Shown one piece after another: positions 17,076 through 46,719 of a stretch of DNA of 64,000 nucleotides. The DNA lies in the NCBI RefSeq assembly GCF_029144185.1, contig NZ_CP110232.1, forward strand, positions 1,942,164 to 2,006,163. Direction: 5' to 3'. A program made the position numbers and the translations under genes. Source of the DNA: Vagococcus intermedius. GTDB taxonomy: Bacteria > Bacillota > Bacilli > Lactobacillales > Vagococcaceae. Below the pieces are notes generated by a model. The model saw nothing but the letters and a program-made list of their open reading frames with translations, had not been told where the DNA came from and did not search any database. How positions within the stretch are numbered: position 1 is the first letter of the stretch; each line of letters opens with the position of its first letter.

Positions 17076-17539
17076 ATGAAAATAAAACTAGAAAGAAAAG
17101 ATAAAAGAAAAAAACTACTCACTCAGTCTATACTCTTACTATCCATGTGGACGATAAAGAAAATATGGTTATTATAAAAAATCCAACGATTAGTAGCATC
17201 CCTACTAAATCAAAGTACAAGCCCAAAGTTAGTGATAGTGATGACACTGTGGATGCCAAAACTACAGAGGAAATTGATTCATTCTTAAAAAGATTTTTTA
17301 AACTCTATCCCAAAACAAATGAAAAAAAACTATCCTACTACGTTACTAATCGAGCTTTAAAACCTATTAATAAAGAGTATCAATTTTTGGAATTAACTTC
17401 TTCTAATTATTCGATAAAGAATAACCAAATCATTACACAAATATCAGTAAAATATCTTGATCCATTAACTAAGACTATTCAAATTTCTGAATTTAATCTA
17501 GTGTTACAAAAGTTTAAAAATTGGATTATTGTGAAATAA
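17076..17539 (+). pseudogene. TcpC-like conjugal transfer protein (Tn916 orf13), internally deleted
   Basis: The first frame (17076-17177) gives a basic N-terminus and hydrophobic start (KLERKDKRKKLLTQSILLLS). It then shifts into a frame open to 17539 that reads as the C-terminal NTF2-like domain of TcpC (DDKENMVIIKNPTISSIP, then EEIDSFLKRFFKLYP, ALKPINKEY). The membrane helix is short and the first NTF2-like domain is missing, so a deletion has joined the two ends. It follows the NlpC/P60 remnant by 19 bases, which matches Tn916-type order. Confidence 0.8.
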
Positions 17540-17683: not shown

Positions 17684-19129
17684 TCAAATTTCTCGTAAAA
17701 TTTTTTCAATGGTAGAGACTAATTCCCTTTCATCTGTACTATCTTTCAAAATTGGTAAATAGGCTCGAAGAAAAGAATAATCTTCAATGTTCTTTTCTAT
17801 TTCTTCAAAGATTTCTTTCGTAGCCTCTCCGGTTGATCCAATTGGGATAATTATTTTTTCTTGCTCTTTTGCAATTTTAAATTCTTCAAACAATCCTTCT
17901 GATAGTTCTTTTTTCTCATTATCAGCTTTTCTATTACCAAATAAAAATATCGCTACACCAACATCATTTATCATTTCAGTACGATACTTCTGCTTAATAC
18001 TCTCCGTTTCGGCTTCAAATCGTCTATCTTGAGGGAACGGTCTTAAAATAAGATGTTCATCTACATGTTTGTACTTTGTAGAATAAATTTCTTCTAGTGC
18101 TCCATTTATGATACTTGAACCTACCCCATACCCAAATCCAGAACAAATTTGATAGTCATTTTTCACTAAAGTCTTTGCTAATGTATGGCAAAAAGAATTT
18201 ACTTTCTCTTTCGTCCAAATGTCATTATAAAAGCTAATGCTACCTGAAATAAATATTTTTCTTTTTAAATTGATAAATTCCAACTCTTTTAGAATATCTG
18301 TAATCTCATCGTAGGAGTCAATGAAAACTGTTTGAATACCATATCTTTGCAACTCGTTAACTTTTAGATTTTGCTTTATTGTGTCAATTTCAAAACGTTT
18401 TGTTAGTTCATTTACTTCTTCTCCACTTTTTCCAATGCGAGATGATTCCGTTACTTTTTTCTCTAACCAATAGCTAACTCCAACATTCTCTCCTAATATA
18501 TTTCTTGTATTAGAGAGAACATTGGTTAAGTTGGGATCCTCAAAGCTAAACCCAATAAAAAGAAAAGTTTTTGAAATTAAGTCACCTTGAAGAAGTCTCG
18601 CAAATAAAGGACTTTTTTGAGTATAAACTTCATAATCCTCTTTAGTCAAAACTGCATTTGCTGCATCGTCCACATCACCATGCATTTTATATAAAATTGC
18701 ATCTCTATCGTATTTATGCGTTATTAGTTGAGTTTCAGTTATCTTTACATCTACTCTTCGGTCATTGTTCTCTAGCCCTTTTTCTAATAATTTATCGTAG
18801 TTAGTTGTCCAATAAGTATAAATAGGTAAACGCGTTAAAATTTCAATGTTTATATTTGGCGCATTGTCTGCTGAAAATTTATCAACAATTTCCTGATTTA
18901 TCTGTCCCCTATTTCTAAATTCATTTCTGTAGTATTGGGCAACTCTTGTTAAATCATACTCTTCATCAATATTTAAGCCTAATTCTTTTGCAAAAGGAGT
19001 TACTAGAGTTTTCCAGTCAACATAACCAGAAGATATTGACAATCCTGCCCCAGCAAAAACTGCTGCATAGCCTTCATTAATAGCCTTGCTATACTTTTCA
19101 ATGAATCTTTCTCTGCTAATTGCTCCCAT
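17684..19129 (-). CDS. thsA: Thoeris NAD-hydrolysing effector ThsA (SIR2-SLOG)
   Basis: 481 residues, close to characterised ThsA (about 476). The N-terminal SIR2-like NADase domain (1-285) has GAG at 27-29, the catalytic-type N110 (TTNYDKLL) and H150 (KMHGD), plus FIGFSFEDPN. The C-terminal SLOG-like domain (290-480) begins IFISGSISF and contains GFGYGVGSSI and RPFPQDRR, the region where the ThsB-made cyclic ADP-ribose signal binds in known members. On infection it should deplete NAD and abort the cell. AGGAG precedes the ATG. It lies 24 bases downstream of thsB in the same operon. All key residues look intact. Confidence 0.93.
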   Translation of the reverse strand: MGAISRERFIEKYSKAINEGYAAVFAGAGLSISSGYVDWKTLVTPFAKELGLNIDEEYDLTRVAQYYRNEFRNRGQINQEIVDKFSADNAPNINIEILTRLPIYTYWTTNYDKLLEKGLENNDRRVDVKITETQLITHKYDRDAILYKMHGDVDDAANAVLTKEDYEVYTQKSPLFARLLQGDLISKTFLFIGFSFEDPNLTNVLSNTRNILGENVGVSYWLEKKVTESSRIGKSGEEVNELTKRFEIDTIKQNLKVNELQRYGIQTVFIDSYDEITDILKELEFINLKRKIFISGSISFYNDIWTKEKVNSFCHTLAKTLVKNDYQICSGFGYGVGSSIINGALEEIYSTKYKHVDEHLILRPFPQDRRFEAETESIKQKYRTEMINDVGVAIFLFGNRKADNEKKELSEGLFEEFKIAKEQEKIIIPIGSTGEATKEIFEEIEKNIEDYSFLRAYLPILKDSTDERELVSTIEKILREI

Positions 19130-19153: not shown

Positions 19154-19762
19154 TTACTTTTTCTTACTCAAAATGTAGCCATTGTTATTTTTACTTTTCT
19201 CATAAGCATTTTCAATGTACTTATTTGGATCTTTCAAAAAATCTTCTTCATTTACTAAAGAGATATATGAGCCGTTCAAAGAATCTATACTTTTGCATGT
19301 CTCACAAGAGTATACTTTGGGATCTTGATTAAATCGATTATTATTAATAATATTATAAATGAATCTTTCATTTGTTCCTATGGTCGAACACCCATCAGAT
19401 TTAATATTTGTTGGTCTAAGCCATGAGTAATCTCCATTATACTTTTGTACAACACCAACTAAGCCATTCGTTCCAGAAGTTACGTCCCCGCGTTTCACTC
19501 GTTTTAAAGAATACTCAATTTCCCAATCAATCCAATCACTCTCAATTATATTAGGTGAAATAACAACGATAGTAACAGAGGTTGAATAAATCATATTTTT
19601 TAGTTGTTCTTTTATATACTCAGTAGTTCTATCTGTCATGTCAGGCGAACTAGTCGTTTCACCTGTGTAATATGTTGCGTCCTCCCCCAAAGATTCAATA
19701 ATAGAATCTCGTAATTTTTTAGCCTCTGAGTATTTGTACGATATAAAAGTTTTTCTTGCCAT
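19154..19762 (-). CDS. thsB: Thoeris TIR-domain sensor ThsB
   Basis: A 202-residue protein with a ThsB-type TIR-like domain (DUF1863/TIR_2): ARKTFISYKYSEA at the N-terminus, SVTIVVISPN, then SDWIDWEIEYSLK, whose Glu residues are the likely catalytic site. In Thoeris, ThsB senses phage and makes a cyclic ADP-ribose isomer that activates ThsA. I use the ATG at 19762, with GGAGGG 6 bases upstream; the GTG of the longer frame overlaps that site. A Cys pair (YSCETC) near the C-terminus may be a structural feature. Confidence 0.92.
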   Translation of the reverse strand: MARKTFISYKYSEAKKLRDSIIESLGEDATYYTGETTSSPDMTDRTTEYIKEQLKNMIYSTSVTIVVISPNIIESDWIDWEIEYSLKRVKRGDVTSGTNGLVGVVQKYNGDYSWLRPTNIKSDGCSTIGTNERFIYNIINNNRFNQDPKVYSCETCKSIDSLNGSYISLVNEEDFLKDPNKYIENAYEKSKNNNGYILSKKK

Positions 19763-20094
19763 TCTCTTCCCTCCTAAATTCACTGCTTTAATTCAAATAA
19801 CTAACTTCCAGTCATCTGAGATTTTTATTTGAAGTGATGACTTGCTACAACTATTTATGAAGATATTTTCTTTCAATATTTTTTTATCAACCTTATTGTA
19901 CCAACAACAATTGTTCTTAACAAGGACCAAACACAACATACAGTATTATCCTCATCCCCAAAATCGATATATTGATATAATTATCAAAAGAAGCAATTTC
20001 AACTAGAATAAAATAGCAATACTTCTAGGAATGATTCTTATTTTAAAACTTAGTAGAATTTGTAATCTCAGTATCTAATAAGCTAATAATGTTA

Positions 20095-22111: not shown

Positions 22112-23713
22112 TTAATGATTCGTAGCACAAGCATCACAAAAGGCTCCTATTGATCCAGATGGGAAAAATAATCCACAATCTGGACAAGGTGACATTTTCT
22201 CTGAACAAGGCGAACAGAGTGGTTCATATCCAAAGGTTCTGTATTCACCTTGTCTAACTTTACATTTTACACATAGTTCGTCATACTCATCGTCAGCATC
22301 AAATGGTGACGATGTAGTAATAACTTGGTAAATTCCACCATATTCGTAGTCAATTTCGACATTGTCTAAATCAAGCATATTCTCTTCATTAAATACTAGA
22401 TACGGACTTCCATCAGTATCTGTATCTATATCCTCATTTTCATTAATGGGTATGGTAATGTCCATCATGTAATTTATATATACATCATACCCGTAATCTA
22501 TTTCGTTATCCCCATAAATCGTACATTTTGTCTCAACATCACAAATAGAGGTTAACTCAATACTCATTTTTAAGCAGTCTTCCTCATTTGAGACATTTAC
22601 TTCTGTTATATCCGTATCAGTCAACTCATTAACATCTAATTCGGTGAAAGGTTCTTCCACGTAATTTGTAAAATCTCCATTACTAAATTCAAATGCCAAA
22701 TCAAGTTTTTCATTTAATTCGTCTTCAATGTCACTAACCGTGATAAACTGTTTCACTTTATCTAATGCATTTAATGAATAATCTGTCACAATCAATTCAA
22801 TAGTTTTATCATAACTTTGATTAATAAAATCTTCTGTACCCAGCATTAAATTGAAAAAGGTTCCTGTAAATAACATTTCAAAGTTAGCTTTGGGTAATCC
22901 AGTTACCTTTTCAAACTCTTCATTTAGCATTGTGTGTTTGTCTATTATCTTTTTATCCTCGTCTAATTCCCACCAATCACATTTTACATCACTCGTTATA
23001 AATAAAAGAGATTGTCTATCTGAATTAATCTTATCAAGAATCTCTTTCCAAATGATTAAATCTCCAAATTTTCTAATATCTGTTTCACCTTGCTTATCTT
23101 TTTTATTTTTCTTACCTTTTTCATCTTTTTTTTCTTTAGGTTTAGCATCCTTAAATCCAGGTGGTATATTTAACTCGTATCTTATATTTCCTTCAGTATA
23201 AATAGCTAACTTATCAAAAATATCGTAACCCTCCCCGACCTTTCCAGAACTTTTAAGTTCCTCTATAAATTCTGAAACAATCCCTGGTTGTCTATCCTCT
23301 ACAATTGAACAAACTTGATTTTTATAAACAGAAACTATCTTTTCTAGTTCATCTATTTTAGATTCTAATTGACTACTTAAAGTTGGTACAGAAGGATAAC
23401 TAAATTTCTCAGGATTTTTCAGTAAAGCTGAAATGTTTTGCTTGAATTTTCTTATAGATTCATTAATATTTTTTGGAAGTCTATCAATTTCTGTTTTCCG
23501 CGATGCCTCAACACTATGTTGGTTACGTTCTACTTCTACACTAACATGATTAGGTACCCATACCTTATCCAAGTTTATTTGGTAAGACTTTAATAAATTA
23601 TGGGAATAAGCTCGATCGTGTTTGTATATGTCTAAGATAGCAGAACTATCCAAAACAATTAGAACCTCTTCTTGATTTAAAAAATTTATCAACTCTTCAG
23701 AATTTTTCAACAT
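22112..23713 (-). CDS. PIN-like domain ribonuclease with C-terminal zinc ribbons
   Basis: 533 residues from the ATG with GGAGG 8 bases upstream. The N-terminal half is a PIN_8-type domain (DUF4935-like): D22 in LIVLDSSAILDIY, E60/E62 in SVEVERN, D218 in FGDLIIWKEIL and D242 in FITSDVKCDWW form a full acidic nuclease set. A highly charged Lys-rich loop (about 187-208) interrupts the domain. The middle (about 300-470) is acidic and unassigned. The last 50 residues carry paired CxxC motifs (CVKC, CSPC, CPDC, CDAC), likely two zinc ribbons. It is intact, monocistronic and between defence remnants; an antiphage or RNA-cleaving role is inferred. Confidence 0.75.
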   Translation of the reverse strand: MLKNSEELINFLNQEEVLIVLDSSAILDIYKHDRAYSHNLLKSYQINLDKVWVPNHVSVEVERNQHSVEASRKTEIDRLPKNINESIRKFKQNISALLKNPEKFSYPSVPTLSSQLESKIDELEKIVSVYKNQVCSIVEDRQPGIVSEFIEELKSSGKVGEGYDIFDKLAIYTEGNIRYELNIPPGFKDAKPKEKKDEKGKKNKKDKQGETDIRKFGDLIIWKEILDKINSDRQSLLFITSDVKCDWWELDEDKKIIDKHTMLNEEFEKVTGLPKANFEMLFTGTFFNLMLGTEDFINQSYDKTIELIVTDYSLNALDKVKQFITVSDIEDELNEKLDLAFEFSNGDFTNYVEEPFTELDVNELTDTDITEVNVSNEEDCLKMSIELTSICDVETKCTIYGDNEIDYGYDVYINYMMDITIPINENEDIDTDTDGSPYLVFNEENMLDLDNVEIDYEYGGIYQVITTSSPFDADDEYDELCVKCKVRQGEYRTFGYEPLCSPCSEKMSPCPDCGLFFPSGSIGAFCDACATNH

Positions 23714-23842
23714 ATTTTTTTCCTCCAACCTTATTTACTTTATTATCCATTTATATTATGAAAAAGACAACTCTTCTCTAGTATTTTTATCTTAGCCTCA
23801 ATACTAATATTCCCTCTTAGAATGGGAATTTAGTCCCAAGTT

Positions 23843-45038: not shown

Positions 45039-45590
45039 CTATTGTAACATTTTTTTGATGCGAGTCATATCGGTCATACGTGACATTAACCAAATTATTA
45101 CTAACCCGATCGTTAACGATATAAACTCACCTACGCCGATTGTCACCCAAGATAACCAAAATGGGGCAGCTAGCAGTAAGTGTAACTCTCCTGCAACAGT
45201 AAACATTGATAAACTACAAATAATCGGCACGCAAAGTAGTTTTTGACGGTCAGTTGTTAACTTCTGACTAACAAAATAAATAATTGTTAGGACGATAAAG
45301 GTTGAAACACTCCCAACAATAACGTCCACCATACCTAGTGGTGAGCTTAAATTAGCTAAGGCTACTCCTAAGGTCACCGCCCCAATATAGCGACGGTGAT
45401 AGATTGCTAGAAAGTTAAACATTTCGGCAAGACGAATCTGGATCATGCCATAGCTTAGCGGGCTAATCAATAAGGTTAGGACCACATATAAGGCAATAAT
45501 CATCGCCATCTTGCTTAAATTACGTGTCGTCAGAAGTGACTCCTGACCTAGTTCTTTACTAATTGCTGAGGTTTCTTGTTTATTTATCAT
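45039..45590 (-). CDS. queT: QueT-family queuosine precursor transporter
   Basis: 183 residues, five or six hydrophobic segments, ECF-type substrate-binding component (DUF988/COG4708): SYGMIQIRLAEMFNFLAIYH, VTLGVALANLSSPLGMVDVIVGS. It should import preQ1 or a related base with a shared ECF energising module, not encoded here. A preQ1-II riboswitch lies directly upstream and ends in the ribosome binding site. Confidence 0.93.
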   Translation of the reverse strand: MINKQETSAISKELGQESLLTTRNLSKMAMIIALYVVLTLLISPLSYGMIQIRLAEMFNFLAIYHRRYIGAVTLGVALANLSSPLGMVDVIVGSVSTFIVLTIIYFVSQKLTTDRQKLLCVPIICSLSMFTVAGELHLLLAAPFWLSWVTIGVGEFISLTIGLVIIWLMSRMTDMTRIKKMLQ

Positions 45591-45598
45591 TTTTATTT

Positions 45599-45690
45599 CT
45601 CCTTTGTAAAATAACTAGTCTCCTAATTATTTTAGTAATACATACGACCAAAGGATTGACCAGCTTACGCTAGACAGAAGTGTCGTATGG
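45599..45690 (-). promoter_or_regulatory. preQ1-II riboswitch
   Basis: On the minus strand a hairpin CATACGAC...GTCGTATG is followed by UAUUAC, a stem AAAAUAA/UUAUUUU, and then ACAAAGGAG, which is the queT ribosome binding site. The order hairpin - UAUUAC - stem - CAAAGGAG is that of the preQ1-II (COG4708) class found in Lactobacillales. Ligand binding should hide the ribosome binding site and stop queT translation. Confidence 0.85.
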
Positions 45691-45732
45691 TTTTACTTTT
45701 CCGTTTTTTATTTTTATTACCTTAATTTCTTG

Positions 45733-46488
45733 TTACTTTTCAAGCCAGCCACCATCAATTGGAATCACCGTCCCATGAATATAATCTGCTAGATCACTTG
45801 CTAAGTATAACGTCAAATTGGCTACTTCCTCAGGTTCTGCCCACCGTCCAGCTGGGGTCTCACTTGCGACCCATTTGGCCATTTCAGCTTCTCCTTCAAA
45901 ATCAGCCTTGTTCATAGGGGTTCGAATCGCCCCAGGTGCAATCGCATTAGCACGAATCCCTTGCTTAGCATAATCTAAATCAAGTTGTTTCGTGTACCCT
46001 ACAATGGCATGTTTGGAAGCAGTATACGCTGCTCCACCGCCTCCTGCCACTAAGCCTGCAATGGAGGACATATTGACAACCGTGCCTTTTTTTTGAGCGA
46101 GCATATGTGGCAATACTTCATTAGTAAAAAGATATGTCCCCTTAAGATTGGTTCCCATCACTAAGTCCCACTGAGCCTCTGATGTTTCAAGAGTTGGGGA
46201 AAATCCGTCTAGAATCCCAGCTGTATTCACTAAAATATCAATTCGACCGTATTTTTCTAACGTAAGTCTCGTCGCATTTTTGGCTGTCAGACTTTGACTC
46301 ACATCACCTTGCATAAAGTGAAATTTAGGATGGTCTTTAAAGGGACAAGCTGGGTCTAATTTCTGTAAATCAACTCCCACTACCCTAGCACCTGCTGAAA
46401 GAAAAGCTTCGCACTGAGCCTGACCAATCCCCGATGCCACACCAGTTAACAGGACAACTTGTTCTTCTAACGTTGTTGGTATCATCAT
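45733..46488 (-). CDS. SDR family oxidoreductase
   Basis: 251 residues, classical short-chain dehydrogenase. NAD(P)-binding TGVASGIGQAQ, NTAGI, catalytic Ser in VNMSSIAGL, YTASKHA, and a C-terminal GTVIPIDGGW. The Asp in GVDLQK suggests NAD preference. Substrate unknown. It lies 9 bases after the DUF2829 gene. Confidence 0.92.
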   Translation of the reverse strand: MMIPTTLEEQVVLLTGVASGIGQAQCEAFLSAGARVVGVDLQKLDPACPFKDHPKFHFMQGDVSQSLTAKNATRLTLEKYGRIDILVNTAGILDGFSPTLETSEAQWDLVMGTNLKGTYLFTNEVLPHMLAQKKGTVVNMSSIAGLVAGGGGAAYTASKHAIVGYTKQLDLDYAKQGIRANAIAPGAIRTPMNKADFEGEAEMAKWVASETPAGRWAEPEEVANLTLYLASDLADYIHGTVIPIDGGWLEK

Positions 46489-46497
46489 TTGACCCTC

Positions 46498-46719
46498 TTA
46501 CTCTACGATTTCCCAATCAGTCGCGAGAATGTCGCAGACTGTTGGGGAAAACATTGAATAACCTTCATCACTTGTCTTAATTAAAAAATGAGGGGTAACA
46601 ACCTTTGACTCATAGATGCCTTCATTAACTAAAATAACGTATTCCTCCACACCACTCCAACCTTTGCGGATGATTTTTCCCCCTTTTTTTAAACGAGGTA
46701 AAATTTCTTCAAAACTCAT
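46498..46719 (-). CDS. DUF2829 (Tad2-like) protein
   Basis: 73 residues: FEEILPRLKKGGKIIRKGW...EYVILVN, IKTSDEGYSMFSPTVCDILATDWEIVE. This is the DUF2829 fold (named Thoeris anti-defence 2-like after phage Tad2, which traps the Thoeris signal). AGGAGG precedes the ATG by 8 bases. It heads a two-gene unit with an SDR gene. DUF2829 proteins also occur widely on chromosomes with no known role, so a link to the Thoeris locus 27 kb away is speculative. Confidence 0.82.
   Translation of the reverse strand: MSFEEILPRLKKGGKIIRKGWSGVEEYVILVNEGIYESKVVTPHFLIKTSDEGYSMFSPTVCDILATDWEIVE

Follow-up and report, generated by a model that had tools for sequence, protein, structure and literature searches.

The window analysed here, 64,000 nucleotides of Vagococcus intermedius DNA, contains on its minus strand a DUF2829/Tad2-like gene (46498 to 46719, ATG start) whose 73-residue product is of the host type, without the long insertion. 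The protein matched the Tad2-like family PF11195 of Pfam over its full length (77.7 bits; cut-off 25), and this was the single PF11195 match found in the whole V. intermedius genome. Nine bases downstream starts its direct partner, an SDR gene of the NCBIfam PRK06550 type (45733 to 46488, minus strand; Pfam and NCBIfam matches). The spacer after the SDR gene holds a structured RNA, the leader of queT (45598 to 45711, minus strand), which is preQ1-II-like and contains an anti-Shine-Dalgarno pseudoknot, and the unit continues on the same strand into a gene for a QueT paralogue, here called QueT2 (45039 to 45590; PF06177, 123.9 bits; cut-off 33.7). There are no phage genes around the DUF2829 gene. 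The sequence-only reading of this DNA had pointed to a 73-residue DUF2829 gene beside an SDR and to an intact thsAB about 27 kb away, and both are real. The type I Thoeris pair consists of thsA (17684 to 19129, minus strand; SIR2 and STALD domains, PADLOC ThsA E 5.6e-176) adjoining thsB (19154 to 19783, minus strand; ThsB_TIR domain, PADLOC ThsB E 3.8e-83), Pfam and PADLOC agree on both genes, and 26,715 bases separate thsB and the DUF2829 gene. We judged both genes to lie outside the module and treat them as context.

The association of DUF2829 with the SDR was constant. An SDR gene lay within 500 bases downstream, on the same strand, in 109 of 109 DUF2829 loci with at least 900 bases downstream, and a QueT gene followed the pair in 58 of 74 loci with at least 2600 bases downstream, being missing nearby in the remaining 16; both counts include loci up to L133, with some genomes represented twice and two collections overlapping. 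The next commonest neighbour family was present at 16 of the best 80 named loci. Those 80, out of 295 relatives confirmed in the scan of named genomes, were mostly from Enterococcus, with Lysinibacillus, Sporosarcina, Companilactobacillus and others. The order DUF2829-SDR-QueT-DhaK-DhaL was kept in V. fessus and V. proximus, with proteins 64 to 83% identical, and the three-gene order in Bacillaceae, Caryophanaceae, Enterococcaceae and Lactobacillaceae. The pair occurred without QueT at four loci of family f4 (probably Streptococcaceae) and without a nearby QueT in genome G028. Within the window's own family (29 genomes), PF11195 was found in 12, and an SDR match above 240 bits in 12 of these 12 versus 0 of the 17 others (Fisher 1.9e-8), the next best paralogue scoring 150. 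Across the order, at least two QueT copies were present in 79 of 193 genomes with PF11195 versus 29 of 202 without it, QueT as such being common (362 of 395 genomes). When 299 genomes of the phylum, few of them Bacilli, were sampled, the host profile (A1) had just two matches, in the window genome and in a genome of f4. No DUF2829-SDR fusion was found among the matches listed in the order scan, in which the longest open frame had 219 aa. In the sequences themselves, 119 DUF2829 proteins were read by a sequence pattern; a further 15 loci escaped it (a broken copy, copies of phage type, two 10-base loci and others that the pattern failed to match). Substitution rates were compared in 13 close pairs; dN was 0.006 to 0.16, dS was 0.20 to 1.7 in the 10 of 13 for which it was computable, and dN was well below dS in all 10. 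The DUF2829 gene is thus chromosomal, conserved in Bacilli and subject to purifying selection, and it sits immediately ahead of one particular SDR. In two genomes the module looks to be in decay: DUF2829 is in two pieces in G008 (L013/L015), while G025 (L012) has a DUF2829 without its end and a QueT interrupted by an internal stop.

The best NCBIfam model for the SDR was PRK06550, '3-oxoacyl-ACP reductase' (349.9 bits; cut-off 270), a name that does not point to queuosine. Residues D40, S142, Y155 and K159, which we take to be the residues of NAD preference and catalysis, were conserved in 97% or more of the 119 sequences, a pattern consistent with an active, NAD-preferring enzyme.

An element similar to the queT leader of the window was seen in each of the 33 SDR-queT spacers printed, and the view that there is no riboswitch near the module was rejected as wrong with regard to structure, the leader scoring under the Rfam thresholds. 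A strict pattern found the RNA in 81 of 119 sequences, and 42 of these were aligned. In this alignment 97.5% of the cells of helices P2, P3 and P4 were paired, as measured with a structure drawn up from the same sequences, and 13 of 22 pairs (in P2 and P4) had changes on both sides; none of 500 shuffles reached this number or the paired share, and when the partners were slid by 1 to 3 columns at most 49.9% were paired. One of the five measures, the number of further pair types (25 versus 22.6 in shuffles), was not distinct (63/500). In helix P3, UCCUUUG pairs with the Shine-Dalgarno sequence; this helix is almost invariant and for that reason offers no support by covariation. A covariance model built for the element, run on 375 genomes of the order, matched in 102. 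Within the family its matches were exactly the 11 genomes with an operon QueT, and stand-alone QueT loci gave one match, at 18 bits and E 0.95. Among the 102 matches, 73 lay within 2.5 kb of a DUF2829 place, 9 lay elsewhere and 20 were in genomes without a DUF2829 place among the matches listed; in 5 of those 29 (G117, G171, G195, G246 and G366) a QueT place begins within 60 bases.

The known RNA that this leader most resembles is the preQ1-II riboswitch (RF01054). The window RNA scored a non-significant 14.8 bits (E 6.4) with that model, unrelated families such as glmS scoring better by chance; elsewhere the score rose to 32.2 bits in L064 (E 0.11) and 45.3 bits in L312, and 8 of the 15 sources of the L312 set had matches, but wherever we looked, the window included, scores stayed below the gathering threshold of 47. 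Three elements in other genomes of the order (L312 266 to 371, L313 325 to 440 and L311 591 to 700) match both the new model and, just below its cut-off, RF01054 (36 to 45 bits of 47). The two RNAs align end to end, and they share helices P2 and P4, the pseudoknot P3 between anti-Shine-Dalgarno and Shine-Dalgarno sequences, and the place before queT. They differ in that the loop of P2 carries an additional hairpin-like insert in many members of the new group, P4 is often longer, and the range of the element extends to Enterococcaceae, Vagococcus, Lysinibacillus and Sporosarcina; preQ1 class II is described, in the accessible part of the review PMC11625349, as limited to Bacillota and primarily to Streptococcaceae and Lactococcus. 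From its sequence and predicted pairing, we read the leader as a divergent relative of preQ1-II, and preQ1-II seems to be wider than the Rfam threshold shows.

QueT2 resembles QueT, the S component of queuosine-precursor ECF transporters, in belonging to PF06177. It is 27% identical (tblastn) to the second, stand-alone QueT of this genome (L177) and belongs to a clade of its own: operon QueT and stand-alone copies fell on the two sides of a branch with support 97/92 in a tree of 44 rows, the bootstrap being not quite settled and seven loci without a tblastn match having been dropped (L165, L175, L176, L271, L272, L275 and L278). Two QueT proteins were reported in E. faecalis OG1RF (PMC6467988, accessible part), and the two QrtT proteins of C. 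difficile differ in substrate (PMC11130926, accessible part); by analogy with these cases, the specificity of a second QueT may well be different. The DUF2829-SDR pair, then, often precedes a QueT paralogue of its own, and the ribosome-binding site of that paralogue is inside a preQ1-II-like pseudoknot RNA.

The AlphaFold model of the DUF2829 protein had a mean pLDDT of 95.1, and all 24 PDB chains that Foldseek matched to it at E of 0.001 or less were of the Tad2 family. By sequence, too, its closest solved relatives were phage or prophage Tad2 proteins (8V3E, 9EIB and 8SME). The best structural agreement was with 8V3E (Foldseek E 1.3e-6, VIA Z 12.2). Outside Tad2 the best match was the phage 812 neck protein (8QKH chain S; VIA Z 6.2 over 66 residues, 14% identity); this match is too weak for kinship to be claimed, and all rows below Tad2 are weak. 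Compared with the Tad2 structures, namely SPO1 Gp34.65 (8SMF), Myroides prophage ModTad2 (8V3E/9EIB) and HgmTad2/AcrIIA7 (8KBJ), the host protein likewise belongs to PF11195, has the same fold (VIA Z 10.2 to 12.2) and has in common the scaffold residues R18, W21, G23, D63, D68 and W69. In contrast to the phage proteins, it is chromosomal, linked to an SDR and part of a separate clade, and it is shorter: 119 host proteins had 72 to 78 aa, without the long b2-b5 insertion, whereas 61 of 81 viral proteins had 85 to 97 aa. That insertion serves cyclic dinucleotides in some Tad2 proteins, and the gcADPR pocket of Tad2 is formed by loops b1-b2, b3-b4 and b4-a3 together with strand b4 and helix a3 (PMC12043709, accessible part). 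What we say of a pocket in the host protein is drawn from these structural elements, as given in that part of the paper, and not from residue contacts.

Four positions invariant in phage Tad2, N22, K24, W57 and S60, are replaced in the window protein by S22, V24, F57 and T60. Across the host family the phage-invariant or nearly invariant residues give way to S, G or E at position 22, to F, A or T at 24, to F at 57 (W being kept in 13%) and to T at 60, while the family has invariant residues of its own at E4, P8, E25, E52, P59 and C62. This comparison included 97 distinct host rows and 68 viral or PDB rows, the latter from 81 viral proteins after exclusion of those identical or outside 70 to 140 aa. 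As one of the two patterns used to scan for viral proteins was GWNG[KR][GE][MQ]F, the viral set is biased at positions 22 to 27 and the invariance of N22 and K24 in phages is partly built in; W57 and S60 lie outside the pattern, and five PDB chains of Tad2 have N, K, W and S at the four positions. The shared and the replaced residues together suggest that the host protein has retained a ligand site but for another ligand.

We tentatively propose, with somewhat less than even confidence, that DUF2829 is a host ligand-binding partner of Tad2 fold for the NAD-type SDR, in a module tied to the uptake of queuosine precursors. The DUF2829 protein would form a Tad2-type assembly, and its altered pocket, with E25, E52 and C62 invariant and the four phage residues replaced, would hold a small molecule connected with the reaction of the SDR: its substrate or product, or else a nucleotide cofactor. 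DUF2829 might thus serve the SDR as a subunit that binds or regulates, most plausibly in the processing of a queuosine precursor, or of a heterocycle like it, that QueT2 imports. Against this proposal count the name of the SDR, 3-oxoacyl-ACP reductase, the position of the RNA, which sits before queT only, the RF01054 scores below the cut-off, and the loci in which the pair stands without a nearby QueT (16 of 74, the four f4 loci and G028). The SDR name, the place of the RNA and those loci favour the alternative that DUF2829 and the SDR are partners elsewhere in metabolism (acyl-ACP or sugar/alcohol chemistry, for instance); QueT2 and the riboswitch-like RNA, which affects queT only, would then be a frequent neighbour of unrelated function. 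We regard this as a serious possibility, although it is countered by the co-occurrence of the QueT2 clade and RNA with the pair in the family (11 of 12 genomes versus 0 of 17) and by the retention of the three-gene order in four families.

The relationship of the host protein to phage Tad2 was examined with a tree of 78 rows and 88 columns (few for so many rows), in which the 33 host proteins fell on one side of a branch with 100/100 support, apart from phage Tad2. Nearest to the host clade were gp59 of Bacillus phage G and two similar proteins. The tree is unrooted and so gives no direction between host and phage. One scenario, which we consider rather unlikely, is that phage Tad2 and the host protein share a metabolic ligand-binding ancestor; the host protein would bind a heterocycle of the queuosine pathway or an SDR product derived from NAD, and phages would have re-tuned the fold into a sponge for an immune signal.

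A further reading has the host Tad2 soak up stray gcADPR and thereby buffer the Thoeris system of the strain itself. The Tad2 fold, the retained scaffold residues and the presence of DUF2829 and Thoeris in one genome speak for it. The sequence-only reading had asked for conserved pocket residues and for co-occurrence above chance as support, and neither was found: the phage-invariant positions N22, K24, W57 and S60 are replaced in the host protein, and across the 395 genomes of the order PF11195 was present in 193 and STALD in 15, with both in 9 where 7.3 were expected (Fisher p=0.44; 9 of 15 STALD genomes also carried PF11195, against 193 of 395 overall), the PF11195 counts taking in phage-type copies too. 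Six of these nine genomes belong to f4, a family with 67 genomes in the PF11195 list and two (G247 and G335) absent from it. Within the 29 genomes of the window's family, STALD was found in two, and together with PF11195 once, in the window genome; among six congeneric genomes STALD was in one, again the window's own. The same reading took a gene at the same site in Thoeris-free relatives as evidence against a buffer, and DUF2829 is indeed at that site in V. fessus and V. proximus, in whose genomes no ThsA-type (STALD) gene was found. Since the conserved module occurs with or without Thoeris, its closeness to the pair is most likely due to chance, the Thoeris genes being most likely a chance neighbour. 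The DUF2829 protein is probably not a Thoeris buffer, and we rate that role as very improbable. Beside the Thoeris pair lie a fragment of a TcpC-like conjugative-element protein and a PIN_8 protein (17147 to 17539 and 22112 to 23728), and the setting suggests that the pair sits in a mobile island.

Just as improbable, or a shade more so, is the idea that DUF2829 is a regulator of the operon; phrog_643, labelled transcriptional regulator, does match (E 4.8e-6), but four better or similar phage families in the same search have no function assigned, the fold is that of Tad2, and no DNA-binding family was matched.

Phage databases gave little trace of the host form. Matches were found in 5 of 50,697 phage records, two of them Bacillus phage G, 34% identical. 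The other three are contigs of unverified status, deposited under the names of Listeria or Enterococcus phages (L144, L145 and L147; OR848486, OR847015 and OR846666), that carry the chromosomal module; all three have the SDR as well and two of the three also QueT, and because the module is aboard they are at least partly host DNA. Viral contigs gave 11 matches, ten of the f4 form and one phage-type. An integrase-like ORF of 381 to 387 aa, named by its appearance, ends about 100 bases upstream of the f4-form DUF2829 in 4 of 4 loci read (L178, L180, L181 and L188; about 1742 to 2903), and the DUF2829 frame of L188 is broken. It is as if elements insert just upstream of the f4-form DUF2829 gene, and the ORF implies that in these viral contigs flanking DNA of the host adjoins an inserted element. 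That the DUF2829 gene is a prophage leftover, a view favoured by the commonness of the domain in viral contigs (at least 556 relatives confirmed for a phage-type query), is refuted as far as these data go by the near absence from phage records, by the host DNA in three of the five that match, by the separate host clade, purifying selection and tie to the SDR, and by the lack of phage genes around it, and we give it next to no credence. Among the three roles that had been offered for the gene, buffering of Thoeris and prophage leftover were thus abandoned, and an unrelated ligand-binding role was kept and sharpened into the SDR partnership proposed above.

We found no description of a host DUF2829-SDR module in the accessible parts of the open-licence PMC literature (including PMC10533825, PMC8125046, PMC12043709, PMC13299392, PMC11722364, PMC6467988, PMC11130926, PMC11727503, PMC7843925 and PMC11625349). 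Members of the family do appear in data sets: as far as the accessible parts of the two papers go, detection of a DUF2829 protein of E. faecalis, Q833Z9, was confined to gliotoxin treatment at 180 min (PMC10533825, Table 9), and another is listed in the S. suis ModS data (PMC8125046). Because Pfam names PF11195 'Thoeris anti-defense 2-like domain', host DUF2829 genes are open to misreading as anti-defence genes. The SDR and second QueT tied to a preQ1-II-like RNA constitute a testable addition to queuosine salvage, and the natural ligand of this fold and the origin of the viral immune sponge can be sought in this conserved host branch, whose enzyme partner is fixed.
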